The notes under the pieces are model-generated. The model saw nothing but the letters and a program-made list of their open reading frames with translations. It was not told the DNA's origin and searched no databases. The translations under genes were made by a program, and so were the position numbers. A stretch of 64,000 nucleotides of DNA, taken from assembly GCF_900090285.1 (NCBI RefSeq), contig NZ_LT607754.1, positions 3,498,001-3,562,000 on the forward strand, read 5' to 3'. This DNA comes from Micromonospora inositola. Lineage in GTDB: Bacteria; Actinomycetota; Actinomycetes; Mycobacteriales; Micromonosporaceae. Positions 20,668 to 50,707 of this stretch are shown piece after piece (the first letter of the stretch is position 1; every line of letters begins with the position of its first letter).

Positions 20668-21815
20668 CCACCCCGGACGGGAACGCGAGCGGGCGGTTCG
20701 CCGAGTTCGGGCCGCCGCGCCGGGTGGAGGGCGGCCTGCGGGCGCGCAGCACCCGGGGCGCGATCGGGCAGTCCTGGTGGTCTCGCCGGTTCCTGGAGGT
20801 GCTGGAGTCCTTCGCCCTCGGCACCCGGCTCACCCGGGGCCGGGCGTACGCGCGCCGCGGTCAGGTGCTCCGGCTGGACATCGCCCCCGGGCTGGTCACC
20901 GCCGCCGTGCAGGGCTCCCGGCCCGACCCGTACCCGGTGCGGATCGAGCTGGCCGCCTATCCGGTCGAGCTGTGGGCCCGCATCGAGGCGGAACTCGCCG
21001 GGCAGGCGTTCTTCAGCGCCCGGCTCCTCGCCGGCGACCTCCCGACCGAGCTGGAGGAGCTGTTCGCCGGGGCGGGCGCGCCGCTCTTCCCGTCCACCGT
21101 GGACGAGTTGACCCAGCGCTGCGGCTGCCCCGACTTCGCGGTGCCGTGCAAGCATCTCGCGGCCACCTTCTACCTGCTCGCCGAGGCTTTCGACGCCGAC
21201 CCGTTCCAGCTCCTGCACTGGCGCGGCCGCAGTCGGGCCGAGCTGCTCGACCGGCTCCGTATGCTGCGTGCCGCCGCCGGCGAAACCGGTACGCCGGAGA
21301 CGGTGACCGGTGGGGCCCACGTGGCCACGGCACGGTCCGGTCCGGACCCGGCCGGGCCGGCGACGAGCCGCCCGTCCACCCCGACGGCCGGTCCGGCGCC
21401 GACCGGACGGTCGACGGCGGCCGGGGCGGCCCGGGTGCTCGGCGCCCTGCCCGCGGCGTCGCCGGCCGACCCGGTCGACCGGTTCTGGGTGGCGCCGGTG
21501 CCGGTGCCCGACCGGCCACCGACCCTCGCGACCGCCCCCGACCTGCTGCTGCGCCAGCTCGGCCCGCCCGGGCCGGCCATCGGCGGCCCGGGGCTGGTCG
21601 AACGGCTGCGCCGGGCCTACCGGGACCTCGGCCGGCCCCGGTCGGACCTGCCCACCACCGGCTCTGCGGAGGCGACGCCCACCGACCGGTCGGGGTCGGC
21701 GCGGTCACAGCCAGCGCCGTCGGAATCGCCACATCAGACCGGCGTTCGCCAGCAGCACCACGGCGCAGATCGCGCCGGCCAGTCGCCCGGCCAGCACGGT
21801 CATCGCCGGCAGTGA
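20664..21815 (+). CDS. SWIM zinc-finger protein
   Basis: 383 residues. The GTG at 20664 overlaps the SNF2 stop (GTGA), so the two are translationally coupled. After RSTRGAIGQSWWSRRFLEVLE the chain reaches the SWIM finger: Cys153-x-Cys155, then Cys162-x-His164 in CGCPDFAVPCKHLAATFYLLAE. SWIM domains bind DNA or protein partners, and this family regularly accompanies a SNF2 ATPase, suggesting one complex. The C-terminal 150 residues are low-complexity Pro/Thr/Ala. The last 37 codons overlap the convergent DUF3040 gene, so the true end of function may lie earlier. Confidence 0.9.
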   Translation: MTTPDGNASGRFAEFGPPRRVEGGLRARSTRGAIGQSWWSRRFLEVLESFALGTRLTRGRAYARRGQVLRLDIAPGLVTAAVQGSRPDPYPVRIELAAYPVELWARIEAELAGQAFFSARLLAGDLPTELEELFAGAGAPLFPSTVDELTQRCGCPDFAVPCKHLAATFYLLAEAFDADPFQLLHWRGRSRAELLDRLRMLRAAAGETGTPETVTGGAHVATARSGPDPAGPATSRPSTPTAGPAPTGRSTAAGAARVLGALPAASPADPVDRFWVAPVPVPDRPPTLATAPDLLLRQLGPPGPAIGGPGLVERLRRAYRDLGRPRSDLPTTGSAEATPTDRSGSARSQPAPSESPHQTGVRQQHHGADRAGQSPGQHGHRRQ

Positions 21816-21962
21816 GGCCCACAGCACGATCGTCAACAGCATGAGGTACCGGCCCCGGCGGGCGCGCGCCCGATGGTCGAGCCGGGCGAAGAACTGCGGA
21901 TCGCTCTCCCGCAGCTGGCGGGTGATCTGCTCGAACCTGCGCTGATCCTCTTTGCTGAGCAT
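21705..21962 (-). CDS. DUF3040 family membrane protein
   Basis: 85 residues. The N-terminal half is basic and helical (LSKEDQRRFEQITRQLRESDPQFF) and matches the DUF3040 opening; two membrane segments follow around residues 39-58 and 60-77, ending in an Arg-rich tail. DUF3040 proteins are small actinobacterial inner-membrane proteins of unknown function. The gene overlaps the end of the SWIM gene by 111 bases, tail to tail. Confidence 0.88.
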   Translation of the reverse strand: MLSKEDQRRFEQITRQLRESDPQFFARLDHRARARRGRYLMLLTIVLWASLPAMTVLAGRLAGAICAVVLLANAGLMWRFRRRWL

Positions 21963-22433: not shown

Positions 22434-24476
22434 ATGGCCGACCAGAATGTGCCACCACGTCGACCCCGGGACGACCGCGGGTGGGACGGGCGACAGCACC
22501 CCACCTCGGACGGGTACCGCGACCTGGACCACGCGACGACGTACGCCCCCGCCGCCGGCTACGGCGGACCCGCCGGGTACCGCCGTGCCACCACGACCCT
22601 CCCCGGCCAGGGATCGCAGTGGGTCGGCCCGGACGGCTTCGGCCGCCAGGGTCACGCCCCGGCGCCCGGCGCGGGACTGCCCAACCTGGACGATGACGGC
22701 GAGCCGGGTCGCCGCGGTCGGCGGCGCGCCCTCGCCGCGCTCGGCGGCGCGGCGGTCGTCGCCGGCGGGGCCGCCCTCGCCATGACCCCCCAGGTGCGCG
22801 GGCTGTTCCGGGACGACCCGGTGGCCGGCGACGCCACCGGCACCGTGGTCACCGACGGCACCGCCGCCCGGCCCAGCGGGCAGCAGCCGAGCACAGTGCG
22901 CACCTACACCGAGCAGAACGAGAGCTACATGGGCTCCCGGGCCGGCGCGGCGCTGAAGCGGAACTCCCCGACCGGCGGCCGGGTCTTCGACGGCCCGGCG
23001 GCCGCCGCCGCGGCGACCCGGGTGACCGTGAAGACCGTGCTCGCCAAGGACCCGGTCCGGCACCTGGCCAGCCGGGCCACTTTCGGCGCCACCCCGAAGG
23101 TGCTGGCCGACATCAAGCGGCTCGGCATCGACGGCTGGCTGCGCCGGCAGCTCGACCCGGAGAAGATCGCCCCGACCAGGGCCGAGCTGAAGCTCGCCGA
23201 GCTGCCCACCCTGAAGCTGACCCCGCAGCAGCTGCGCGACCAGCGGGACCAGCTCAACGAGCGGGGCGCCCAGCCGGAGCGGGAGATGATCGACGGGACC
23301 ATCGCCCGGCAGATCTGGTCCGACCGGCAGCTCTTCGAGGTGATGGTCGACTTCTGGAACGACTTCCTGCACGTCGCCGCCGAGTTCGACGGCGGTGAGG
23401 TCTACCGCAACTCGTTCGACCGGGACGTCGTCCGGGCCCACGCCCTGGGCAGCTACCCGGAGATGCTGATCGCCGCGAACAAGCACCCGGCGCTGCTGCT
23501 CTACCTGAATCAGGTCGACTCCCGCAAGGACGCGGTCAACGAGAACCTGGCCCGGGAGAACCTGGAGCTGTACTCGGTCGGCGTCGACGGCGGGTACACC
23601 GAGAAGGACGTCCGGCAGGCCGCGATGCTGCAGACCGGCCGGGGCGTCGCCGACGGGAAGTACGTCTTCCACCCGGAGCGGCACTACGTGGGCAGGGTGA
23701 AGATCCTCGGCTTCAGCCACCCGAACAGCTCGGCGGACCCGAAGGTCGCCGACCGGGTGATCGACCAGTACATCGCCTACCTCGCGCTGCACGCGTCGAC
23801 GGCCCGGTACGTGGCCCGCAGCCTGGCCACCCGGTTCGTCTCGGACACCCCGCCCAAGTCCCTGGTGGACCGCCTGGCCAAGACTTACGCGGCGAACAAG
23901 GGCCTGATCAAGCCGGTGCTGATGACGCTCTTCAGCTCGTCGGAGTTCTGGGCCGCGGTGGGCCAGAAGGTGCGCCGGCCGATGGAGTACCTGGTCGCCA
24001 CCTACCGGACCCTCGGGGTCCGGCCGGAGGCGTCGCCCGGTTTCCAGGGCGACAACCGGCGCACCCCGTACGCGCAGGGCCTGCGGCAGATCCAGGACAA
24101 GATGCGCGAGCTGGGCCAGTACCCGATGGGCAAGCCCACCCCGGACGGCTACGCGGACGTCTACGTCGCCTGGACCTCGGCCGGCACCATGGTCGACGGC
24201 TGGAACGAGGCCGGCGAGCTGCTCGGCGGCTGGCGCAAGCAGTTCACCTACACCGCGCCGGAGAAGCTGGTGGCGCGCCCGCCGGCCACCGCCGGGGCGT
24301 ACGTGGACGAGCTGGCCGAGCGGCTGGTGCACCAGAAGCTGAGCGGCAAGGAGAAGGCACTGATCCTCGGCGTCGCCGGAGTCCCGGCGACCACGAAGGT
24401 CGACGCCACGTTCAACGGGGCCGTCGCCGCCGTCGCGCGGACGATCCTCGCTTCCCCCCAGCACCACCTCCGGTGA
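22434..24476 (+). CDS. DUF1800 domain protein
   Basis: 680 residues. A cytoplasmic Pro/Gly-rich N-terminus of about 95 residues is followed by an Arg-rich stretch (GRRGRRRALAALGGAAVVAGGAALAM) that acts as a membrane anchor or Tat-like signal. The DUF1800 region starts with VRHLASRATFGATPKVLADI, includes DFWNDFLHVAAEF, NENLARENLELYSVGVDGGYTEKDVRQAA and MLQTGRG, and ends in SSSEFW-type and LILASPQ-like segments. DUF1800 proteins are exported and commonly paired with DUF1501; their activity is unknown. Its stop overlaps the GTG of the next gene, and the operon continues through ApbE, so it is probably served by that redox chain. Confidence 0.88.
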   Translation: MADQNVPPRRPRDDRGWDGRQHPTSDGYRDLDHATTYAPAAGYGGPAGYRRATTTLPGQGSQWVGPDGFGRQGHAPAPGAGLPNLDDDGEPGRRGRRRALAALGGAAVVAGGAALAMTPQVRGLFRDDPVAGDATGTVVTDGTAARPSGQQPSTVRTYTEQNESYMGSRAGAALKRNSPTGGRVFDGPAAAAAATRVTVKTVLAKDPVRHLASRATFGATPKVLADIKRLGIDGWLRRQLDPEKIAPTRAELKLAELPTLKLTPQQLRDQRDQLNERGAQPEREMIDGTIARQIWSDRQLFEVMVDFWNDFLHVAAEFDGGEVYRNSFDRDVVRAHALGSYPEMLIAANKHPALLLYLNQVDSRKDAVNENLARENLELYSVGVDGGYTEKDVRQAAMLQTGRGVADGKYVFHPERHYVGRVKILGFSHPNSSADPKVADRVIDQYIAYLALHASTARYVARSLATRFVSDTPPKSLVDRLAKTYAANKGLIKPVLMTLFSSSEFWAAVGQKVRRPMEYLVATYRTLGVRPEASPGFQGDNRRTPYAQGLRQIQDKMRELGQYPMGKPTPDGYADVYVAWTSAGTMVDGWNEAGELLGGWRKQFTYTAPEKLVARPPATAGAYVDELAERLVHQKLSGKEKALILGVAGVPATTKVDATFNGAVAAVARTILASPQHHLR

Positions 24477-24484
24477 GGCATTCG

Positions 24485-25864
24485 ATGGAGAAGACCGTGT
24501 ACTCGTATCCCCTGCACCCCGAATGCCCGGACCTGCGGCGGCTGGCCGACAACCCGGCCGAGGCGCTGCTGCGCGCGGAGGTCGACATCGTCGCGGCGGA
24601 GAACGCCGCCGAGGCGGACCGCTACCGACGGCTGGAGGAGCTGGAGGAGGCCCAGCAGGACGGGCGCGGCGTCACCCGGCGCACCTTCGTCGCCGGGGCC
24701 GCCGCCACCGCCACCGCGCTGGCCACCGCCCAGTTCGTCACCACCTCGGCGTCCTTCGCGGCGACCAGGACGGGCACCCTGATCCACGTCTTCCTCTACG
24801 GCGGGCTGGACGGGCTGAGCCTGGTCGCCCCGGCCGACGACCCGGTCCTCGGCAAGGCCCGGCCGGACCTGCTGCTCGGCAACGACTCGCTGGCCCTGGG
24901 CCGCGGCTTCAAGCTGACCAGCGCCTTCGCCCCGCTGGAGAAGTGGCTCAGGGCCGGGCAACTCGGCTTCGTCCCGGCGGTCTCCGACCCCCGGCTGTCC
25001 CGCAGCCACTTCCAGGCCGCCGACGCCTGCAACCTGGGCGGCCTGCCGGGCGAGACCGGTGGCCGGGGCTGGCTGGACAGCCTGGTCGACGCGCTCGGCA
25101 AGGGCACCGCGTTCCGCAGCGTGGGCATCGGCAGCACGCTGCCCCGGTCGCTGGTCGGCGTCAACGGCGCGCTCTCCCTGACCAGCGTCGGTGAGCTGCG
25201 GCTCAACGGCGACGAGAAGTACCGGGCCGCCACCGAGAGGGCGATCCGCGGGCTGTTCACGGGGATCAACCACCCGGTGGAGGAGGCGGTCATCGAGGGG
25301 ATGGGCGCGCTGGCCACCGCCCAGAAGCTCGCCGCCAAGCCGTACCAGGCCGCCGCCGGGGTGAAGTACGAGGGCGTCGGGTACGCGTTCCAGCAGCTCG
25401 CCCAGCTGATCAAGGGCGGGGCGAACGTGCGGGTCGCTACCGTCGGCATGGGCGGCTACGACACCCACGAGAACCAGGGCACCCAGGACGGCGGGAACCT
25501 GTGGCGGCGGCTCAACGAGCTGGCCGCCGCGATGGCCGCGTTCTTCACCGACCTCGGCGACCGTGCCGCCGACGTGACGATCATGGTGTCCAGCGAGTTC
25601 GGCCGCCGGGTCGGGTCCAACGGCGGCGGCACCGACCACGGGCACGGTGGGGTGGTGACGATCCTGTCCGGGCGTAAGCTCGCCGGGTCGCTGCTCGGCA
25701 GGTGGAACGGGTTGAACGATCTGGACTCGGGCGACGTACCCGAGTACAACAACATGTTCAACGTCTACGGGTCCGTGGCCCAGGGCCGGTTCCGCCTCAC
25801 CACGGCGGAAGTGGACAAGGTCTTCCCCCGGCAGAAATACGTACCCATGAAGTTGTACGCGTGA
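24485..25864 (+). CDS. DUF1501 domain protein with Tat-type signal
   Basis: 459 residues from the ATG at 24485 (a GTG at 24473, overlapping the previous stop, would add four). A 65-residue charged leader precedes VTRRTFVAGAAATATALATAQFV, a twin-arginine signal. The mature part opens GTLIHVFLYGGLDGLSLVAP and contains LSRSHFQAADAC, VGMGGYDTHENQG and SSEFGRRVGSNGGGTDHGHGG, which place it in DUF1501, related in fold to sulfatases and alkaline phosphatases. His/Asp clusters (YDTHE, TDHGHG) suggest a metal site. The substrate is unknown. The stop overlaps the reductase GTG, supporting coupled translation. Confidence 0.9.
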   Translation: MEKTVYSYPLHPECPDLRRLADNPAEALLRAEVDIVAAENAAEADRYRRLEELEEAQQDGRGVTRRTFVAGAAATATALATAQFVTTSASFAATRTGTLIHVFLYGGLDGLSLVAPADDPVLGKARPDLLLGNDSLALGRGFKLTSAFAPLEKWLRAGQLGFVPAVSDPRLSRSHFQAADACNLGGLPGETGGRGWLDSLVDALGKGTAFRSVGIGSTLPRSLVGVNGALSLTSVGELRLNGDEKYRAATERAIRGLFTGINHPVEEAVIEGMGALATAQKLAAKPYQAAAGVKYEGVGYAFQQLAQLIKGGANVRVATVGMGGYDTHENQGTQDGGNLWRRLNELAAAMAAFFTDLGDRAADVTIMVSSEFGRRVGSNGGGTDHGHGGVVTILSGRKLAGSLLGRWNGLNDLDSGDVPEYNNMFNVYGSVAQGRFRLTTAEVDKVFPRQKYVPMKLYA

Positions 25865-27282
25865 CATATCAGGACACCTGCGCCGCCGGCCGCCGTACCG
25901 GGACCTCCCCGGAGTACGGCGGCCGTTCGGCTGCCCCCGTACCCCCGCCGCCGGCGCTGCCCCGCCGGGGGGCCGGCGGCCGGCGGGCCCTGGTGGCCCT
26001 GTTCTGGCTCGGCCTGGTGGCCGCGGTGCTGCCCTGGTGGCTGGACACCCCGGCCGGTTCCTTCGCCGGCACCACCGACGACCTCACCGCGGCCGGCCGG
26101 ATCACCGGCCTGGTCGCCGGCTACCTGCTGCTGGTCCAGGTGGCGATGATGAGCCGGCTCGGCGTGCTGGAACGCTGGGTCGGCGGGGAGCGGCTGTCCC
26201 GCCTGCACCGGGACGTCGGCGCCACCCTGCTCGTCGCGGTGCTCGCCCACCTCTCGCTGATCGTGGTCGCCTACGCCGGCCTGGAGGAGAAGTCTATCCT
26301 CGGTGAGGTCGGCTCGCTGCTGCGCGACTACGAGGACATGGTCTCCGCGTTCGTGGCCGCCGGCATCATGGTGCTGGTTGGGTTCACCGGCATCCGGGCG
26401 GTCCGCACCGTCCTGCCCTACGAGTTCTGGTACCACCTGCACCTGACCAGCTACGCCGCCCTGCTGCTCGGCTTCGGCCACCAGTTCAGCAACGGCGCCC
26501 AGCTCTACGAGCCCGGGCCGGTCCGCACCGGCTGGATCGCCGCGTACCTCCTGGTCCTCGCCGCGCTGATCTGGGGTCGGGTGGTGGCCCCGTTGCACTT
26601 CAACCTGCGGCACCGGCTGCGGGTCGCGGACGTGGTGGCGGAGAGCCCCGACACCATCTCGATCTACCTGACCGGTCGCCGGCTGAACCAGATCGACATG
26701 CTCGGCGGGCAGTACTTCCGTTGGCGTTTCCTCAACGTCGGCGGCTGGTGGCAGTCCCACCCGTTCTCGCTCTCCGCCGCGGCCAACGGCCGCTGGCTCC
26801 GGCTGACCGTGAAGGTCGTCGGTGGGCACACCGCCGACCTGCGTGACCTCCGACCGGGCACCCTGGTCTGGGCGGAGGGCCCGTCGGGCACCTTCACCGC
26901 CGCCCACCGCACCCGGGAACGCGCCCTGCTGATCGCCGGCGGCAGCGGCATCGCCCCGCTGCGGGCGATGCTGGAGGAGCTGCCGCCGGGCGCCGCGCTG
27001 ATCTACCGCGCCCGCACCCCGGCCGACGTGTTGCTCCATCCGGAGCTGGACTGGCTGGCCCAGGCCCGGCGGACCTCCGTCTGGTACGTCATCGGCTCCC
27101 GCGACGATCCCGGCCCCCGCCAGGTGATGAGCCCGGAGGGACTGCGCCGGCTGGTGCCGGACGTGACCCGCCGCGACGTCTACCTCTGCGGGCCCGCCGG
27201 GCTGGTCGACGAGGCGGTCCGGGTGCTGCGCCGCGCCGGCGTCCCCCGCCGGCAGATCCACCTGGCCACCTTCGAGCTGTAG
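25861..27282 (+). CDS. Ferric-reductase-like transmembrane flavoprotein
   Basis: 473 residues. Six membrane helices lie between about 42 and 242, with paired histidines His116/His130 and His192 or His194/His207 placed to hold two b-haems. The cytoplasmic FNR-like module follows: HPFSLS (300-305) for FAD, GGSGIAPL (360-367) for NAD(P)H, and CGP (443-445) near the nicotinamide. The protein would move electrons from NAD(P)H through FAD and haem to the outer membrane face. The GTG at 25861 overlaps the DUF1501 stop. The FMN-binding and ApbE genes follow closely, so the likely acceptor is the exported flavin protein, not iron. A divergent relative is at 46287. Confidence 0.92.
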   Translation: MTYQDTCAAGRRTGTSPEYGGRSAAPVPPPPALPRRGAGGRRALVALFWLGLVAAVLPWWLDTPAGSFAGTTDDLTAAGRITGLVAGYLLLVQVAMMSRLGVLERWVGGERLSRLHRDVGATLLVAVLAHLSLIVVAYAGLEEKSILGEVGSLLRDYEDMVSAFVAAGIMVLVGFTGIRAVRTVLPYEFWYHLHLTSYAALLLGFGHQFSNGAQLYEPGPVRTGWIAAYLLVLAALIWGRVVAPLHFNLRHRLRVADVVAESPDTISIYLTGRRLNQIDMLGGQYFRWRFLNVGGWWQSHPFSLSAAANGRWLRLTVKVVGGHTADLRDLRPGTLVWAEGPSGTFTAAHRTRERALLIAGGSGIAPLRAMLEELPPGAALIYRARTPADVLLHPELDWLAQARRTSVWYVIGSRDDPGPRQVMSPEGLRRLVPDVTRRDVYLCGPAGLVDEAVRVLRRAGVPRRQIHLATFEL

Positions 27283-27297
27283 AAAGGCACTCCTGGA

Positions 27298-27879
27298 ATG
27301 CGTCGCGCCGTCCTCGCGATCACCGGCCTGGCCGCCAGCACCGCCGCGCTGGTGGTGCTCAAGGGTTCCCCGGGCGCCAGCCAGGTCGCTCAGGACCTGC
27401 CCGCCGACCAGGCGTCCGTGGCGCCGGGCGCGTCCGGGCCCGCGCCCGGAGTGACCCCGACCCCCGGCTCCGCCTCCGGCCCGGCCCCTTCGGTCCCGCC
27501 CAGCGCCGGGGCCAGCCGCACCCCGGGCACGAAGAAGACCGACACCACCGCCAGGGCGACCACGGCCGCGCCCCGGACCACCACCACCGCGCCCAGGCCG
27601 AGCACCCGTACCGTGACCGGGCCGTCGGTCACCTACAAGTACGGCTCCCTGCAGGTGCGGATCACCCTGAGCGGGACCCGGATCGTCGACGCCACCGCCG
27701 TCGGCATGCCGGTGGGCGGGCAGTCGGGCCTGCGCAGCGACGACGTGCAGGCCCGCTACAGCGGCACTTCGGGGGAGGTGGTGGCGAAGCAGAGCGCCAA
27801 CCTGGACACCGTCTCCGGGGCCACCTACACCAGCACCGCATACCGGCAGTCGCTCCAGGCCGCGATCGACAAGGCCTGA
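27298..27879 (+). CDS. Exported FMN-binding domain protein
   Basis: 193 residues. An N-terminal signal or anchor helix (AVLAITGLAASTAALVVL) leads into a 70-residue Pro/Thr/Ser-rich linker and then an FMN_bind domain: TYKYGSLQVRITLSGTRIVDATAV and LDTVSGATYTSTAYRQSLQAAI. The SGAT motif (Thr176) is the site at which ApbE attaches FMN through a phosphoester bond in this family. It is therefore a probable extracytoplasmic flavin electron carrier tethered by the linker. GAAAGG lies at 27282-27287 before the ATG. It lies 15 bases after the reductase and 4 before apbE. Confidence 0.92.
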   Translation: MRRAVLAITGLAASTAALVVLKGSPGASQVAQDLPADQASVAPGASGPAPGVTPTPGSASGPAPSVPPSAGASRTPGTKKTDTTARATTAAPRTTTTAPRPSTRTVTGPSVTYKYGSLQVRITLSGTRIVDATAVGMPVGGQSGLRSDDVQARYSGTSGEVVAKQSANLDTVSGATYTSTAYRQSLQAAIDKA

Positions 27880-27883
27880 GCCA

Positions 27884-28663
27884 GTGGTGGAGGTGACGGC
27901 GTCGCGCGCCCGTCCGGGCCTGCGCCGGGTCGAGCAGATCATGGGTACGGCGATCAGCCTGGACCTGGCCGACGACCTGCCTGCCGCGACCCTGCACCAG
28001 CTGGCCGAGGAGACCTTCCGTTGGCTCCGGGAGGTCGACGCCCGGTTCAGCACCTACCGGGAGGACAGCGAGGTGTGCCGGTTCGACCGGGGTGAGCTGC
28101 CGCTCGCCGAGGCGTCGGCGGACCTGCGGGCGGTGCTGGAGCGGTGCGCCGACCTCTGGGACGCCACCGACGGCTTCTTCGACGCGTACGTCACCGGGCG
28201 GCTGGATCCCTCCGGCTACGTGAAGGGCTGGTCGGCGCAGGTCGCCTCGGACCGGCTGCTCGCCGCCGGCGCGCCCAACCACTGCGTCAACGCCGGCGGC
28301 GACGTGCGGGTACGCGGCCACTCCGCGACCGGCGAGCCGTGGCGGATCGGCGTCCGGCACCCGTGGGACCCGTCGGCCACCTGCCTGGTGCTCAGCGGCA
28401 CTGACCTGGCGGTGGCCACCTCGGGGGTGTACGAGCGCGGTCAGCACGTGCTGGACCCCCGCCGGGGCGCCCCCGCCCCGGGCCTGCGCTCGGTCACCGT
28501 GGTCGGCGCGGACCTCGGGGTCGCCGACGCGTACGCCACCGCCGCCGTGGCGATGGGCCGGTCCGGGATCGGCTGGCTGGACCGCCTCCCGGACCACGGG
28601 CACGCGGTGGTCACCGACGACGCCCGCCTCCTCCACTCCACCCGCCTGTCCCTCGTCGACTGA
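27884..28663 (+). CDS. apbE: FAD:protein FMN transferase (ApbE)
   Basis: 259 residues. Typical ApbE features are EQIMGTAISLDLADD at the start, DARFSTYREDSEVCRFDRGE, the DPSGYVKGWSAQ segment contacting the flavin, NAGGDVRVRG, and VATSGVYERGQHVLDPRRGAPA, which includes the metal-binding region; ATAAVAMG is close to the end. It splits FAD and transfers FMN to a Thr on the partner domain. The start follows the FMN-binding gene by four bases. No signal peptide is evident, although many ApbE proteins act outside; a downstream start or Sec-independent localisation cannot be excluded. Confidence 0.93.
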   Translation: MVEVTASRARPGLRRVEQIMGTAISLDLADDLPAATLHQLAEETFRWLREVDARFSTYREDSEVCRFDRGELPLAEASADLRAVLERCADLWDATDGFFDAYVTGRLDPSGYVKGWSAQVASDRLLAAGAPNHCVNAGGDVRVRGHSATGEPWRIGVRHPWDPSATCLVLSGTDLAVATSGVYERGQHVLDPRRGAPAPGLRSVTVVGADLGVADAYATAAVAMGRSGIGWLDRLPDHGHAVVTDDARLLHSTRLSLVD

Positions 28664-28951: not shown

Positions 28952-29632
28952 TCACCAGCCGCGGCGCGGCAGCGGTAGTTGGCCGGGGAGCAGGTCGGAG
29001 GCGAGCGTCACCCCGGCCGCCCGTAACGCGTCGATCAGCGCGTTCTGCACCAGGTAGGAGTCGGGCAGCTGCCAGCGGGCCTGTTCGGGGGCGACGGCCC
29101 AGCGGACGACGCCCTCCGGCAGCCGGGTCGGCGGCGCCGGGATCCACGAGCCCGGGCCGTGCCGGACCACGTGGAAGCAGTGTTCCAGCTCGGGCCGGAG
29201 CGGGTCGGCGGGGCGGACCAGGAACATCCACCGGCCGGTGGGGGTGACCAGGACCGGCCCGCGTACTCCGAAGCCGGCGGGGTGGGTCGCGACGGCGTCC
29301 AGCACGTGGCGGCCGAGGTGGGCGGAGACCTCCAGCACGTCGAAGGAGCGTCCGGTGGGGAGCAGCACCCCGTGCGGGCGGCTGCGCCACCAGGTGACCA
29401 CCCGGGCCGGGTCGGCGGTCGCCGCCTGTTCCCAGTTCTCCAGCGCCGGGTGGCAGCCGACCGTGGGACAGCCCGCCCGGCCGCAGACGAAGCGGCTGTT
29501 GGCGAGGCAGGCGCCGGGGGTCACCGCCCAGCCGTGCCCGGCGTAGCGGACCGCGACCCGGCGCAGCCGGACCCGCTCCAGGAGCGACAGGTGAGCGACG
29601 CCCGGTCCGACATTCCCCCACATGTGTGCCAT
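28952..29632 (-). CDS. Bifunctional primase/polymerase (prim-pol)-like protein
   Basis: 226 residues, or 223 if translation starts at the ATG at 29623, which has GAGGAG at better spacing. The chain follows the actinobacterial prim-pol N-domain plan: YAGHGWAVTPGACL, a Cys-rich insert CGRAGCPTVGCHPALENWE, TWWRSRPHGVLLPTGRSFDVLEV, and LVTPTGRWMFLV. No helicase domain is fused, and the metal-binding DxD of active primases is not clear. It may be a stand-alone DNA-binding relative. It faces away from the XRE/TPR regulator. Confidence 0.78.
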   Translation of the reverse strand: MAHMWGNVGPGVAHLSLLERVRLRRVAVRYAGHGWAVTPGACLANSRFVCGRAGCPTVGCHPALENWEQAATADPARVVTWWRSRPHGVLLPTGRSFDVLEVSAHLGRHVLDAVATHPAGFGVRGPVLVTPTGRWMFLVRPADPLRPELEHCFHVVRHGPGSWIPAPPTRLPEGVVRWAVAPEQARWQLPDSYLVQNALIDALRAAGVTLASDLLPGQLPLPRRGW

Positions 29633-29836: not shown

Positions 29837-31063
29837 ATGGACGAACTACCCATAGGCCGACGGGTGGCATATTGGCGCGGCCGGCGCAAGATGTCCCAGC
29901 AGGTCTTCGCCGACCGGCTCGGCAAGTCCAAGAGCTGGGTGGACAAGGTCGAGCGCGGCGTCCGGCGGCTGGACAAGTTCTCCGTCCTCTACGAGATCGC
30001 CGACATCCTCCAGGTCGACGTCCAACTGCTGCTCGGCAAGGACCCGGAGCGGCGTACCGACGCGTTGAACTGCATCGACCAGGTCGAGGTCGAGGAGATC
30101 CGGGCCGCGCTGGAGCGGTACGACTCGATGAGCGCCTACTTCGACGCCGCCCCGTACCCGCCGCCGCTGGCCGACATGCGCAAGGCGGTCAACCACGCCT
30201 GGCTCACCTACCAGTACGGCCGCTACGGGATGCTCACCCGCGCCCTGCCGAAGCTGCTGCGCGACGCCCAGGCGGCCGACGCCGGCTACGGCGGCGACCA
30301 GGCCCGGGAGTCGGCCCACCTGCTCGGGCAGGTCTACCAGATCGCCTCCTCGGTGCTGCGCAAGCTCGGCGAGTGCGACCTGGCCTGGCTGGCCGCGGAC
30401 CGTTCGATGGCGGTCGCCCAGCGGGCTGACGACCAACTGCTGGCCGGCATCGCCACCACCCGGGTCTGCAACGCGCTGGTCGCCATGGGCCGGGCCCGGC
30501 CGGCGCTCGAACTCAACGTCAACATCGCCAACCGGCTCGCCCCGGGCGGCGGCAACGACGCCTCCCCGGGCCGGCTCTCCGTCTACGGCATGCTGCTGCT
30601 TCAGGGCGCGATGGCTGCCGCCCGGATCGGCGACTCCGCCACGGTGGACGACCTGCTCACCGGCGCGCAGGAGGCGGCGACGCTGCTCGGCGGCGACCAG
30701 AACCACTACTGGACCTCGTTCGGCCCGACCAACCTGGAGCTGCACCGGGCCGCCGCCGCGGTGGAGCTGGGCGACGGCGGGCGGGCGGTGGAGATCCACC
30801 ACGCCATCGCCGAGCCGGCGTTCAACGCGCTGCTGCCCGAGCGGCGGGCGCACCACCTGCTGGACATCGCCCGGGGTTACGCGCAGCTCGGCGACGTGGC
30901 GAACGCGGGGGAGATGCTGCTGCGCGGCGACCGGCTGGCGCCGTCCGAGATCCGCTGCCGGCCGATCGCCCACGAGGTGATGGCGGACGTCCTCCGTCGC
31001 ACCCGGGGTACGCCGCCTCCGCCGATCGCGGAGTTGGCTGAGCACATGGGAGTCGGGGTATGA
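29837..31063 (+). CDS. XRE-family regulator with TPR-like C-terminal domain
   Basis: 408 residues. An N-terminal helix-turn-helix (about 6-65): GRRVAYWRGRRKMSQQVFADRLGKSKSWVDKVERG, then a long all-helical region with repeated 34-residue-like helix pairs (residues 110-400) as in TPR-type peptide-responsive regulators. The ATG at 29837 has GGGGGAG upstream. Such proteins bind DNA through the HTH and sense a ligand or partner through the TPR superhelix. The flavoprotein gene starts 16 bases after its stop, and this pair is repeatedly seen in actinomycetes. Confidence 0.9.
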   Translation: MDELPIGRRVAYWRGRRKMSQQVFADRLGKSKSWVDKVERGVRRLDKFSVLYEIADILQVDVQLLLGKDPERRTDALNCIDQVEVEEIRAALERYDSMSAYFDAAPYPPPLADMRKAVNHAWLTYQYGRYGMLTRALPKLLRDAQAADAGYGGDQARESAHLLGQVYQIASSVLRKLGECDLAWLAADRSMAVAQRADDQLLAGIATTRVCNALVAMGRARPALELNVNIANRLAPGGGNDASPGRLSVYGMLLLQGAMAAARIGDSATVDDLLTGAQEAATLLGGDQNHYWTSFGPTNLELHRAAAAVELGDGGRAVEIHHAIAEPAFNALLPERRAHHLLDIARGYAQLGDVANAGEMLLRGDRLAPSEIRCRPIAHEVMADVLRRTRGTPPPPIAELAEHMGVGV

Positions 31064-45797: not shown

Positions 45798-46286
45798 CGG
45801 ACCCGGTCAGTCCTTGCTCGACACCGTGCCCGGCAGGTCGAGCATCCGCTGCAGCGCCACTCGTCCGTCGCCCGCCAGGTCGGCCGCCCACGCATGGCGG
45901 CTGACCTGCTGTTTCTCCGGGCGCTAGTGGTCGTCGTCCATCGTTGTTGGTCGGCGTTTGGCGGCCCAGCGCCGGTCCCGGACGGCCCAAGGACGGCCCG
46001 AACGACCCGAAGCGCAGCCCCAACCATCGAACCGTTTACTGAAATCCCGCTGCCATAAAAAACGGCGGACGCGGTACGTAGAATCGGCAGAGATGCAGCC
46101 ATTGTGCCGCTACCCAAACTCGCCGGTGAATAAACGCGATCGCGCTCAATCATCTTTGTCCGGTGCGACGTTTTCTGACCGATTCTCCGATCGCACTTCA
46201 CGCTCGTCGGCGGATCACGGAGATGGCAATGGGGAAATCCGACGGTTAATGGGCGAACGGGCGGGGCTGGTGCGGGAGGGGGGCTT
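45798..46286. other. Low-GC intergenic region before the second flavin cassette
   Basis: 489 bases. At 45809-45905 the minus strand reads HAWAADLAGDGRVALQRMLD up to a stop, the likely tail of a lost gene. From about 46020 to 46250 the DNA is markedly richer in A/T than anything else here (AT-rich runs such as CATAAAAAAC). A GTGCGA/TCGCAC pair flanks 46163-46196. This probably holds the promoter of the reductase gene at 46287 and marks foreign DNA. Confidence 0.5.
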
Positions 46287-47678
46287 GTGACCGGGAAGGC
46301 GCAGGCGGTCGCCGCTGCGGCCAGGCCCGCACGAACCGCCGCGTGGTCGTGGTGGGCCGATGTGATCGCCTCTGCCGGCGCGGTCAGCGTGCTGATCGTC
46401 GTCGCGCTCTGGGTGCGAGGCGGCGGTGTGCAGGATCTTCGTGGCTGGGCGGCGGGCCTGACGTCGCTCGGCCGGTTGACCGGGCTTGTCGCGGCCGACC
46501 TGCTGCTCATCCAGGTGCTGCTGATTGCGCGCGTGCCGTGGATCGAGGGCACCTACGGACAGGACACGCTCGCCCGTTGGCACCGCGTCGTCGGGTTCGT
46601 CTCCTTTGATCTGCTGCTCGCGCACATCGTGCTGATCACGGCCGGGTACGCCGCGACGGATGGGGCCTCAGTGACAGGCGAGGCGTGGACCCTCGTCACC
46701 ACGTACCCGGGCATGCTGCTGGCGCTCGCCGGAGCGGCCGCCCTGACGATGGTCGTGCTCACCTCCCTGCGGGCCGCGCGGCGGCGGCTGCGCTACGAGG
46801 CGTGGCACCTGCTGCACCTGTACGCCTACCTCGGCGTCGGCCTGGCGCTGCCACATCAGCTCTGGACCGGGGCCGACTTCACCAGCTCCCGGGCCGCGAC
46901 GCTGTACTGGTGGACCGCGTACGCCGCGTGCGCCGGCGCGGTGGTCGGCTTCCGGCTCGGGCTACCGGCCTGGCGGACGATGCGGCACCGACTCACGGTC
47001 GCCGCAGTCGTCCCAGAGGCTCCCGGCGTTCACTCGATTTACATGCGCGGACGCCACCTGGACCGGTTGCCGGTGCGGGCCGGGCAGTTCTTCCAGTGGC
47101 GCTTCCTCAGCGGCCCGGGTTGGAGTCGCGGCCATCCGTACTCGCTGTCCGCGGTACCGCGTGAGGACATGCTGCGGATCACGGTGCGATCCCGCGGCGA
47201 GGGCAGCGAGAAGGTATCAGAGTTACGGCCGGGCACCCGTGTGTTGATTGAGGGGCCGTACGGCCGGCTGACCGCCGCCCGGCGCACGGCGCCGCGGGTC
47301 ACCATGATCGCGTCCGGGATCGGAATTACCCCGCTGCGGACGTTGTTGGAAGCATTACCGTACGCGCCGGGCGAAGCCACGCTGCTGTACCGGGCGCGCT
47401 CGGCAGAAGACCTGGTGTTTCGCCAGGAACTGGAGCGCCTCGCGGCCGCCCGTGGCGTGCGCGTGGAGTACCTGTTGGGGCCGCGCGGGCGGGAAGACTC
47501 GTGGTTGCCGGCCGGAGTCGGCGACGACGTGAAAGCCTTGCGTGAGCTTGTCCCGGACATCGCGCAGCACGACGTGTTCATCTGCGGACCGGATGAGTGG
47601 ATGCAAGCGGTGGTACGGGCGGCGCGGCAGGCAGGCGTGCCGGCGGAGCGCATTCATCTTGAGCGCTTCACCTGGTAA
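46287..47678 (+). CDS. Ferric-reductase-like transmembrane flavoprotein (second copy)
   Basis: 463 residues. Six membrane helices between about 24 and 226, haem-ligand candidates His99/His113 and His174 or His177/His190, then the cytoplasmic NAD(P)H-FAD module with HPYSLS (283-288), ASGIGITPL (342-350) and CGP (433-435). It is clearly related to the protein at 25861 but diverged throughout. Two rare TTA leucine codons (47223-47225, 47355-47357) suggest recent acquisition or, if a bldA-type tRNA exists, developmental control. It heads a three-gene unit with FMN-binding and ApbE genes. Confidence 0.92.
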   Translation: MTGKAQAVAAAARPARTAAWSWWADVIASAGAVSVLIVVALWVRGGGVQDLRGWAAGLTSLGRLTGLVAADLLLIQVLLIARVPWIEGTYGQDTLARWHRVVGFVSFDLLLAHIVLITAGYAATDGASVTGEAWTLVTTYPGMLLALAGAAALTMVVLTSLRAARRRLRYEAWHLLHLYAYLGVGLALPHQLWTGADFTSSRAATLYWWTAYAACAGAVVGFRLGLPAWRTMRHRLTVAAVVPEAPGVHSIYMRGRHLDRLPVRAGQFFQWRFLSGPGWSRGHPYSLSAVPREDMLRITVRSRGEGSEKVSELRPGTRVLIEGPYGRLTAARRTAPRVTMIASGIGITPLRTLLEALPYAPGEATLLYRARSAEDLVFRQELERLAAARGVRVEYLLGPRGREDSWLPAGVGDDVKALRELVPDIAQHDVFICGPDEWMQAVVRAARQAGVPAERIHLERFTW

Positions 47679-47729
47679 CTCGGCCACCCATCCTCATGGC
47701 GCTCACAATCCCGACCCGAGGAGGACGAC

Positions 47730-48215
47730 ATGCGCAAGATCACTATGTGGTTCCTCGCCACGATCGCCGCAGTGGTACTTCTCTTCAGTTACCGGACATC
47801 GACCGGACCCGACAGCTCCCCCTCGGCCGAGACCGTTGGCGGCGCAGGCGCGGCGGGCGTGGAGAACGGCCCCGGCGCGGCGGCGGACCCCAGGACGTCA
47901 CGGGGCACCGTCGCACGGTCCGGTTCCACCACCGTCGCCGACGGCCCAGCCGTGCAGACCAAGCGGGGGCGCGTCCAGGTGCAGGCCCACATCAGCGGCG
48001 GCCGGATCACCGACATCACGCCGCTGACGGTGCCGAGCACGAACAACCGCGACCGCGAGATCAACAAGTACGCGGTGCCGAAGCTGCGCGCGGAGGCGCT
48101 CGCCGCGCAGAGCGCCCAGATCGACGCGGTGTCCGGGGCGACGCTGACCAGCGGGGGCTACACGAAGTCGCTCCAGGCCGCGCTGGACTCCGCTCAGTTC
48201 ACGGCCAAGCCGTGA
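47730..48215 (+). CDS. Exported FMN-binding domain protein (second copy)
   Basis: 161 residues. A signal/anchor helix (ITMWFLATIAAVVLLF) precedes a short linker and an FMN_bind domain: GRVQVQAHISGGRITDITPLTVPS, then INKYAVPKLRAEALAAQSAQ and DAVSGATLTSGGYTKSLQAAL. The SGAT threonine is the expected ApbE target. The linker is shorter than in the copy at 27298 and lacks its Pro/Thr repeats. GAGGAGGA at 47718-47725 is a strong ribosome site. ApbE follows with overlapping stop and start. Confidence 0.92.
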   Translation: MRKITMWFLATIAAVVLLFSYRTSTGPDSSPSAETVGGAGAAGVENGPGAAADPRTSRGTVARSGSTTVADGPAVQTKRGRVQVQAHISGGRITDITPLTVPSTNNRDREINKYAVPKLRAEALAAQSAQIDAVSGATLTSGGYTKSLQAALDSAQFTAKP

Positions 48216-48946
48216 CCAGGCAGGCGTTCGTCGAGCAGATCATGGGTCTGCCGGTCAGCGTGCATGTGCGCGGTCCCGGTGCCGACTCCCCGGCGGCGGC
48301 GAACGCCGTCGCCGGGGCCTTCGCCGAACTGCGCGCGATGGACGCCGTCTTCAGCCCGTACCGCCCGGACAGCCGGCTGAGCGCGCTGAACCGGGGAGAG
48401 CCGGTACATGATCCGTTGATCGACGCGGTACTCGACCTGTGCGAGCAGGCGCGGCAGCGTACGGCCGGCTACTTCAACGCGTACCTTCCCGAACCCGGCG
48501 GTGGCACCCGCTTCGACCCGTCCGGCCTCGTCAAGGGCTGGGCCGTCGAGCGCGCCGCGGAGCACCTCGAGGGGTACACGTTCTACCTGAATGCAGGTGG
48601 GGACATGACGGTACGCGGATCCTGGCGCGTGGGCGTGGAGGATCCGGCACAGCCCGATCAGCTCCTCACCACCATCGAGGTCGTCGACGGGGCCGTCGCG
48701 ACCTCGGGCAGCGCACACCGCGGAGCGCACATCGTAGATCCGCACACCGGCGCCCCCGCCCGGGGCCTGCGCTCGGTCACCGTCATCGGCCCGTCCCTGA
48801 CCTGGGCGGACGTGTACGCCACCGCAGCGGCTGCGCAGGGACCTCAGGCGGTGACATGGCTCGCCACGCTACCCGGGTACGAGGCCCTGCTCGTCGGCGA
48901 CGACGGCGCCCTATTCGCCACGCCCGGCTGGCCACCACCCGCGTAA
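48212..48946 (+). CDS. apbE: FAD:protein FMN transferase (ApbE, second copy)
   Basis: 244 residues from a GTG at 48212 overlapping the FMN-binding stop (GTGA). ApbE blocks: EQIMGLPVSVHV at the start, MDAVFSPYRPDSRLSALNRGE, RFDPSGLVKGWAVERA, NAGGDMTVRGSW, and VATSGSAHRGAHIVDPHTGAPA with the metal-binding loop. It would attach FMN to the exported domain encoded just before it. It differs enough from the copy at 27884 to suggest specificity for its own partner. Confidence 0.93.
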   Translation: MTRQAFVEQIMGLPVSVHVRGPGADSPAAANAVAGAFAELRAMDAVFSPYRPDSRLSALNRGEPVHDPLIDAVLDLCEQARQRTAGYFNAYLPEPGGGTRFDPSGLVKGWAVERAAEHLEGYTFYLNAGGDMTVRGSWRVGVEDPAQPDQLLTTIEVVDGAVATSGSAHRGAHIVDPHTGAPARGLRSVTVIGPSLTWADVYATAAAAQGPQAVTWLATLPGYEALLVGDDGALFATPGWPPPA

Positions 48947-49471: not shown

Positions 49472-50707
49472 ATGGACACCCTCACCTCGGCCCAGTCGCC
49501 TAGCGTCTGGCGCCACCTTGACTTCCAACTTCTCCTCGGCGGCCGGCTCGTCTCCCAACTGGGTGACCAGCTGCAGTTTCTCGCTCTCCCGCTCCTGGTA
49601 GTCGCGCTGACGGGATCATCCACGCAGGCCGGGCTCGTCCTCGGACTGCAGACCGTCGTCTTCCTCGTGTTCGGCCTGATTGCTGGCGCACTGGTCGATC
49701 GCTGGGACCGCAAAGCCGCCATGATCATCTGCGAGATCGGCCGTGGCCTTCTCGTAGCTACCGTTCCGGTCGCGGCTGCGCTTGGCGTGCTGGGTATGCC
49801 CCAGCTCTACGCCGTCGCGCTCCTGACCGGTGTCTTGAGCACCCTGTTCTCGGCGGCGAACAGCTCGGCGTTGCCGAACATCGTCAGCAGGGCCGAACTT
49901 CCAGCGGCGTTGGGCGCGATCGGCGCCATGTCCAACGGACTGCGGATCGTGGGGGCCACCCTGGCGGGCATCGCCTATGCGCTGGGCCGCGTCGTACCGT
50001 TCGCGTTCAACGCCGTCTCGTTCCTGGTCTCGGCGGTCGCGCTTCGCGCTGTCCGTGCGGAGTTCCAAGAGGCGCGGAACACCGCGCTTGCCTCGCCTCG
50101 GGAGTTACTGACCGACATTCGCGAAGGTCTGGCGTGGCTGTGGCGCAAGCCGGTAATCCGCGTTCTGGCGCTGCTCGATGCCGGCGACAGCCTGCGCTAC
50201 GGTGCCGGCTACCTCCTGATCATCATGCTGGCCCAGCAGCTGCATGCGAATCCGACCCAGGTCGGCATCGTCTTCACGGGTGCCGCGGTCGGCGCGCTGG
50301 TGGGCAGCCTTGCTGCGCCCGCGTTGACTCGACGCTTTTCCCTCGGGCGGCTGTCGATCGTGATGCTGTGGGTGGAAGCGCTGACCTTCCCCCTCTATGC
50401 CCTGGCCCCGACCTGGTGGCTCCTGCTGGTCGTGGCGTTCGCAGAGTCAGTCGTGTCACCGATCTACAACGTCGGCCTCGACACTTATCGGATCACCGTG
50501 ACCCCAGATGCCCTCCGCGGACGTGTGACCAGTGCGATCGACACGCTGACCACCGGTGCTTCCGCCATCGGCGCCATGGCCAGCGGCGCCCTCATCGCCC
50601 TTCTCGGCGCACGGACGCTGACCTACGCACTGGCCGTCTGGCTGCTGCTTCTGGCGCTCATCGCCACGACCAGTCGGACAGTCCGCAACGCACAAGCGAC
50701 CGGGTGA
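49472..50707 (+). CDS. MFS transporter (EntS/MefA-like exporter)
   Basis: 411 residues, 12 membrane helices. WRHLDFQLLLGGRLVSQLGDQLQFLALPLLVVAL is the opening of the MFS_3 (enterobactin/macrolide exporter) group; LIAGALVDRWDRKAAMIICE is its motif A. SVVSPIYNVGLDTYRITVTPDALRGRVTSA is the family's helix 10-11 loop. It is probably an exporter of a siderophore or antibiotic; the substrate is unknown. One TTA codon occurs at 50105-50107. A palindromic leader lies upstream and a terminator downstream, so it is monocistronic. Confidence 0.92.
   Translation: MDTLTSAQSPSVWRHLDFQLLLGGRLVSQLGDQLQFLALPLLVVALTGSSTQAGLVLGLQTVVFLVFGLIAGALVDRWDRKAAMIICEIGRGLLVATVPVAAALGVLGMPQLYAVALLTGVLSTLFSAANSSALPNIVSRAELPAALGAIGAMSNGLRIVGATLAGIAYALGRVVPFAFNAVSFLVSAVALRAVRAEFQEARNTALASPRELLTDIREGLAWLWRKPVIRVLALLDAGDSLRYGAGYLLIIMLAQQLHANPTQVGIVFTGAAVGALVGSLAAPALTRRFSLGRLSIVMLWVEALTFPLYALAPTWWLLLVVAFAESVVSPIYNVGLDTYRITVTPDALRGRVTSAIDTLTTGASAIGAMASGALIALLGARTLTYALAVWLLLLALIATTSRTVRNAQATG

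Follow-up and report, generated by a model that had tools for sequence, protein, structure and literature searches.

A DUF1800-DUF1501 gene pair joined to an MsrQ-like flavinylation trio in Micromonospora inositola and related Micromonosporaceae

Introduction

The locus described here raises the question whether five adjoining genes of Micromonospora inositola encode one oxidoreductase or two systems that share a place on the chromosome. The genes lie in a window of 64,000 nucleotides (the whole stretch of DNA that was analysed) and encode a DUF1800 protein, a DUF1501 protein, a membrane reductase, an FMN-binding carrier and an ApbE flavin transferase. A preliminary description had proposed that electrons from NAD(P)H pass through haem to exported, covalently bound FMN and from there to DUF1501 and DUF1800 as the terminal part.

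The last three genes resemble the MsrQ-like flavinylation system, which was published in 2021 by Meheust et al. with 1797 clusters and is broadly conserved in Actinobacteria (PMC8238504). It is defined by a PF01794 protein encoded in a flavinylation-associated cluster, with a signal peptide or lipidation site on at least one target gene product (FMN_bind or ApbE) (PMC8238504). The names DUF1800 and DUF1501 do not occur in the main text of that paper. DUF1800-DUF1501 operon pairs have been named beside bacterial chitin synthases (PMC5122149), and DUF1501 clusters of PVC bacteria are found in PMC4452313. PSCyt2-PSD1 modules are treated in PMC5615132, the main text of which does not name DUF1501. 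In the literature searched, the five-gene arrangement was not found, and DUF1501, DUF1800 and PSCyt/PSD are families without known activity.

Organization of the locus

All five genes are encoded on one strand, and their coordinates, order and families were confirmed by open reading frames and Pfam searches, in which each of the five scored above the cut-off (Table 1). The junctions are, in gene order, a 4-base overlap (at 24473), a 4-base overlap (at 25861), a 15-base gap and a 4-base gap; the earlier reading of one direction with overlaps or gaps of at most 15 bases is thus borne out. The DUF1800 and DUF1501 genes are adjacent, and their products exceed the curated cut-offs (375.8 versus 26.1 bits and 70.2 versus 27 bits). 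Both modules are probably carried on one transcription unit. No sigma-70-like promoter sites were found across the operon region, a result uninformative on a single transcript either way.

Table 1. Features of the Micromonospora inositola window
Feature	Position	Strand	Details
DUF3040 gene	21705-21962	-	Pfam 8.7e-15; left flank of conserved synteny
DUF1800 protein	22434-24476	+	680 aa; Pfam PF08811, E 4e-112
DUF1501 protein	24473-25864	+	463 aa; Pfam E 2.5e-19; Tat-type RR at residues 69-70; predicted alkaline-phosphatase-superfamily fold
Membrane reductase	25861-27282	+	473 aa; Ferric_reduct haem domain E 3e-14; C-terminal FAD_binding_8 and NAD_binding_1
Exported FMN_bind carrier	27298-27879	+	193 aa; Pfam FMN_bind E 4e-6
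ApbE flavin transferase	27884-28663	+	259 aa; Pfam ApbE E 2e-43
Prim-Pol-domain gene	28952-29632	-	Pfam 4.2e-16; right flank of conserved synteny
XRE-type regulator	29837-31063	+	Pfam HTH_31 1.2e-9; right flank of conserved synteny
Second trio, reductase	46233-47678		Ferric_reduct 5e-16
Second trio, FMN protein	47730-48215		MRK start; VSGATLTS motif
Second trio, ApbE	48167-48946		3e-37
MFS transporter	49472-50707		Downstream of second trio

The M. inositola chromosome is a single contig of 6.71 Mb. It has one DUF1800 gene and encodes three Ferric_reduct proteins, and ApbE is matched at four sites. A second, paralogous trio is located within the window (46233-48946). A third is found elsewhere in the genome (L150, 3738360-3740823), with one TGA inside its ApbE match.

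The reductase, FMN carrier and ApbE trio

The window trio is of the MsrQ-like kind: a PF01794 (Ferric_reduct) membrane protein with haem-ligand histidines and an NAD-binding C-terminus is encoded beside an FMN_bind protein and apbE. It differs from the published systems in the DUF1800-DUF1501 pair that lies upstream and in an ApbE on which no signal was seen. The ligands H116, H130, H194 and H207 are invariant in 69/69 reductase rows, with or without the pair. H192, the fifth histidine of the membrane part, is not conserved in these rows, so that the four to five haem ligands counted earlier become four.

The carrier starts with MRR and a hydrophobic segment, followed by a long Pro/Thr/Ala-rich linker and the motif VSGATYTS, in which the SGAT threonine, Thr176, is the predicted flavinylation site. 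A twin arginine plus hydrophobic stretch was present in 76 of 79 carrier starts, by a pattern that demanded a basic residue and at a high GC content that favours Arg over Lys. Judged by hydropathy, the signal that marks MsrQ-like targets would lie in this segment of the carrier; none was seen in the window ApbE, nor was a hydrophobic N-terminal segment in 72 ApbE rows, some of them mis-started. The window ApbE matches solved FAD:protein FMN transferases (best 6nxi, E 5.5e-21). As ApbE appears to have no export signal, the carrier most likely receives its FMN in the cytosol and is exported afterwards. ApbEs that act in the cytosol on intracellular substrates are known (PMC12052999).

The FMN motif was surveyed in 58 rows, among which L144, L156 and L205 are truncated calls. 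Six carriers (L061, L077, L079, L174, L200, L203) have VS[QDT]ATATS for VSGATxTS, so that Gly is lost and the flavin threonine is kept. Three (L137, L143, L145) have SGAS, with Ser replacing the flavinylated Thr, and one (L135) has TGAT.

As a standard MsrQ-like electron exporter, the trio would operate as follows. NAD(P)H would reduce FAD in the cytosolic module of the reductase, two bis-histidine haems would carry the electrons across the membrane, and covalent FMN on Thr176 of the linker-tethered carrier would pass them to an extracytosolic acceptor. The families support this part of the preliminary description, and the route had already been published for MsrQ-like systems (PMC8238504).

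Conservation and distribution

The linked set comprises 38 loci, the window and 37 relatives, from six genera of one family; it was assembled from 27 DUF1800 neighbourhoods and eleven more loci including the window. The association of DUF1800/DUF1501 with flavin genes, which the preliminary description would have abandoned had it been confined to one genome, is therefore a wider one. All five genes have the same order and strand in 36/38 loci, and the arrangement is thus not due to chance. ApbE is missing in the other two, at a contig end in L156 and in L087, where no ApbE was found in about 3.7 kb downstream and no match in the genome (assembly 94% complete). Beside this ApbE-less cluster, which belongs to genus g273, three genes convergent to it (L087:173-3570) resemble the EfeU, EfeO and EfeB genes of iron uptake; the L087 trio may accordingly serve iron reduction.

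DUF1800 is present in 138/200 genomes of the family and 33/396 of the phylum. Among 60 DUF1800 neighbourhoods, 27 contained the pair followed by reductase and FMN genes (20 in genus g1, 7 in other genera), with ApbE in 26 of the 27. In the other 33, a DUF1800-DUF1501 pair was present, and homologues of the reductase, the FMN protein and ApbE were absent at E<=1e-3. One contig carries two different DUF1800-DUF1501 pairs in tandem (L100:6606-14995).

Among the best 80 of 415 DUF1501 loci (named genomes), a reductase adjoins DUF1501 in 32, all from Micromonosporaceae (Micromonospora, Asanoa and one unclassified). In 47, no reductase was found in the flank examined, some flanks being short; one further locus, L183, was left out of judgement, its sequence stopping 91 bases past DUF1501. 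The same DUF1501 subfamily occurs in five of these 47, namely four Dactylosporangium loci and L204. The remaining 42 have more distant DUF1501 proteins from Actinobacteria, Chloroflexi, Acidobacteria, Gemmatimonadetes and others. The pair without the trio is the rule in the other loci read.

In the 38 genomes of genus g1, both modules were present in 26, the trio only in 5, the pair of this subfamily only in none and neither in 7; one of the searches behind these counts scored at most 8 candidates per genome. The genome counts of the separate surveys share genomes and are not independent. Some profile HMMs, built from sets with overlapping-frame ORFs, gave spurious matches, and counts were taken from other searches. 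Several genes in the neighbourhood calls were mis-started.

Joining and separate absence of the modules

A quick reductase tree of 69 rows was built without bootstrap; the second-frame piece of L132 (<300 residues) was left out, and of the over-long match L069 the last 476 residues were used. All 38 linked rows fall into a single group together with 7 unlinked ones (SH-aLRT 98). The linked/unlinked label requires 5 changes, of which at least 4 are forced by supported branches; none of 500 shuffles was as low. Two of the linked rows, L087 and L138, sit on long branches and are uncertainly placed, which counts against the reading favoured below. The label also needs 5 changes on the DUF1501 tree (22 linked loci and 14 rows of unknown context; the outgroup is not one clade). 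In the simplest history, pair and trio would have been joined once in Micromonosporaceae and the pair then lost several times.

Seven trio-only loci (L131-L137) occupy the same syntenic place, with an SNF2 helicase and Prim-Pol in 7/7 and DUF3040 called in 5/7, and no DUF1501 of the subfamily was found elsewhere in their genomes. In one trio-only genome (G535), only the last 109 residues of DUF1501 remain, directly upstream of the reductase. Conversely, DUF1501 of the subfamily occurs in 6/6 genomes of genus g266 (63-70% identity), a close relative of which is Phytohabitans rumicis (P0109), with XRE downstream in 6/6 and Prim-Pol in 5/6. DUF1800 precedes DUF1501 in five of these loci (L267-L271), and in L204, taken as the sixth because its reductase-match coordinates are identical, the contig starts at DUF1501. 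The best reductases of g266 match at E 3e-90 or weaker, the two listed being 40 and 43% identical, which indicates that there is no orthologous trio at the search sensitivity used. In Dactylosporangium fulvum (NZ_CP073720.1), the pair (L198, 237-255 kb) lies about 1 Mb from the best trio (reductase at 1.34 Mb). The fixed co-occurrence of all five genes, proposed earlier as a check, does not extend to the seven trio-only genomes and the six g266 genomes.

Modules left alone look constrained in sequence: dN is 0.036-0.046 versus dS 0.24-0.32 for the reductase in L133-L135, and 0.05-0.06 versus 0.24-0.27 for DUF1501 in L268-L271. As each module is missing independently at one locus, a single obligate five-part oxidoreductase in which DUF1501/DUF1800 act as the terminal enzyme is very improbable, in spite of the common gene order, the overlapping genes and the lack of pair-only genomes in g1.

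The same separability, together with the distance between pair and trio in D. fulvum, would fit modules that have unrelated substrates and nothing in common but a promoter or a regulatory condition, such as a growth stage. That several genera have kept the two together seems to exceed what neutral drift would leave, and we regard this reading as possible without expecting it to be correct.

The DUF1501 and DUF1800 proteins

By structural matching, the predicted DUF1501 model has an alkaline-phosphatase-superfamily fold, like that of NPP, sulfatase and LtaS structures, at about 5-15% identity among the matches listed. D113, S178, H179, D330, H332, E375, D388 and H389 are strictly conserved and are candidates for the canonical two-metal ligand set and nucleophile; residues 386-390 have pLDDT <50. 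About 65 residues stand ahead of the twin arginine (window 24473-24680), an unusually long leader common to many subfamily members and absent in P0109 and L138.

The DUF1800 protein has a long low-confidence N-terminal part with a twin-arginine-like RRRALAALGG, followed by a mostly helical domain (about 158-680); pLDDT of the AlphaFold2 model is mostly >90 across residues 180-680. The model gave no PDB match at Foldseek E<=0.001, and the window protein contains no Cys. No recognised redox cofactor site was seen in the DUF1800 or DUF1501 sequence; this and the phosphatase-type fold predicted for DUF1501 argue further against the obligate five-part enzyme, in which the two proteins would be the terminal part.

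The window pair shares with the pair beside chitin synthases (PMC5122149) the joint occurrence of both genes and a Tat motif on DUF1501; it differs in the flavin electron exporter that follows and in the changed subfamily residues DUF1501 R109Y, D427N, R429F and E434S and DUF1800 H380Y. Further changes at near-fixed positions are DUF1501 G318N and DUF1800 L376N. These changes are common to trio-linked and trio-less members, which suggests that a change of substrate preceded the joining of the trio.

Relation of DUF1800 to PSCyt2-PSD1 cytochromes

PSD1 was found in 2 of 11 genomes searched, both from Acidobacteria, and DUF1501 directly follows the PSD1 gene in 9/10 cases there, the tenth being cut by a contig end. 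Of the proteins tested with Pfam, 6/6 partners have PSCyt2 and PSD1, two of them with PSCyt1 as well, and 2/2 downstream proteins are DUF1501. These modules are thus like the window pair in having DUF1501 directly downstream of a large partner.

In profile-profile comparison (hhalign), DUF1800 and PSCyt2-PSD1 aligned with a score of 58.1, E 5e-6 and probability 86% over 405 collinear columns. Among the controls, the 50 checked column shuffles reached at most 30.2 and ten unrelated profiles at most 23.9; reversal of one side gave 17-18, and reversal of both gave 53.6. With fewer rows, an earlier alignment had covered 89 columns of PSD1 (E 2.7e-5, probability 74%). DUF1800 would therefore be a remote homologue, and the remote homology to PSD1 falls in its C-terminal half. 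The haem region (E 0.29) and the N-terminal halves alone (E 0.09) gave no significant alignment, and Pfam gave no PSCyt2 or PSD1 match to the window DUF1800 at E<=1. CxxCH, the c-type haem motif of the PSCyt2-PSD1 partners, is present in 21/21 of their rows (11 are close relatives of one protein) versus 0/102 DUF1800 rows, and is absent from all five window proteins.

By this relation, the pair may be part of a redox family. As the partner of DUF1501 elsewhere is a cytochrome and its neighbour here is a flavin carrier, flavin may have replaced haem: DUF1800 would be a haem-less cousin of PSCyt2-PSD1, an exported FMN carrier would have taken over electron transfer from haem, and the pair would be an optional client of the trio. 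That flavinylated domains and cytochromes can be exchanged is a subject of the paper on MsrQ-like systems (PMC8238504). The insignificant haem-region and N-terminal alignments, the DUF1501 kept without an orthologous trio in g266, the distant trio in Dactylosporangium and the lack of a flavin partner in the examined flanks of trio-less loci weigh against such a replacement, which we consider unlikely. In its full form it is more doubtful: DUF1800 proteins would be haem-less descendants or cousins of these cytochromes, and in one actinobacterial lineage a carrier loaded in the cytosol, exported folded and tethered by its linker would have taken the place of the lost haem in wiring electrons to or from a DUF1501 enzyme of alkaline-phosphatase fold.

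Conclusions

The reading that we favour, and hold to be rather probable, is that the operon consists of two envelope modules that were joined once within Micromonosporaceae, that neither needs the other, and that any coupling is optional. The first would be the MsrQ-like exporter. The second would be a Tat-exported metallo-hydrolase or transferase of the alkaline-phosphatase superfamily (DUF1501) with a helical partner protein (DUF1800). Optional coupling is made more plausible by the remote homology of DUF1800 to haem-c PSCyt2-PSD1 proteins.

Several observations stand against this two-module reading. The pair never outlives the trio in g1, as if it depended on the trio in that genus, and this is the strongest argument for some dependence. 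Translation of the genes may be coupled, as their 4-base overlaps suggest. In L266 (G396), DUF1800 and reductase are both broken and ApbE was not found, which points to joint decay, and L132, which lacks the pair, has a frameshifted reductase. The FMN carrier is less constrained in trio-only loci (dN/dS 0.52-0.60 versus 0.34-0.42 in three linked loci). Paralogous trios, of which M. inositola has three, could serve the pair in trans, so that pair-only loci are no proof of independence. The haem-bearing relatives of DUF1800 suggest a redox role of the pair.

The MsrQ-like system with its electron route and the DUF1800-DUF1501 pair were already known; the predicted DUF1501 fold and the apparent DUF1800-PSCyt2-PSD1 homology are new. 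The DUF1501 enzyme class is not known to be redox-linked. An ApbE without a signal also invites the question whether actinobacteria attach covalent flavin before export. The predicted fold and the DUF1800-PSD1 relation offer concrete biochemical starting points, and a locus in which each half has been lost separately provides natural knock-outs with which to learn whether electrons are used by the DUF1501 enzyme. If the flavin-for-haem replacement were true, it would be an extracytosolic swap of cofactors feeding this enzyme class.
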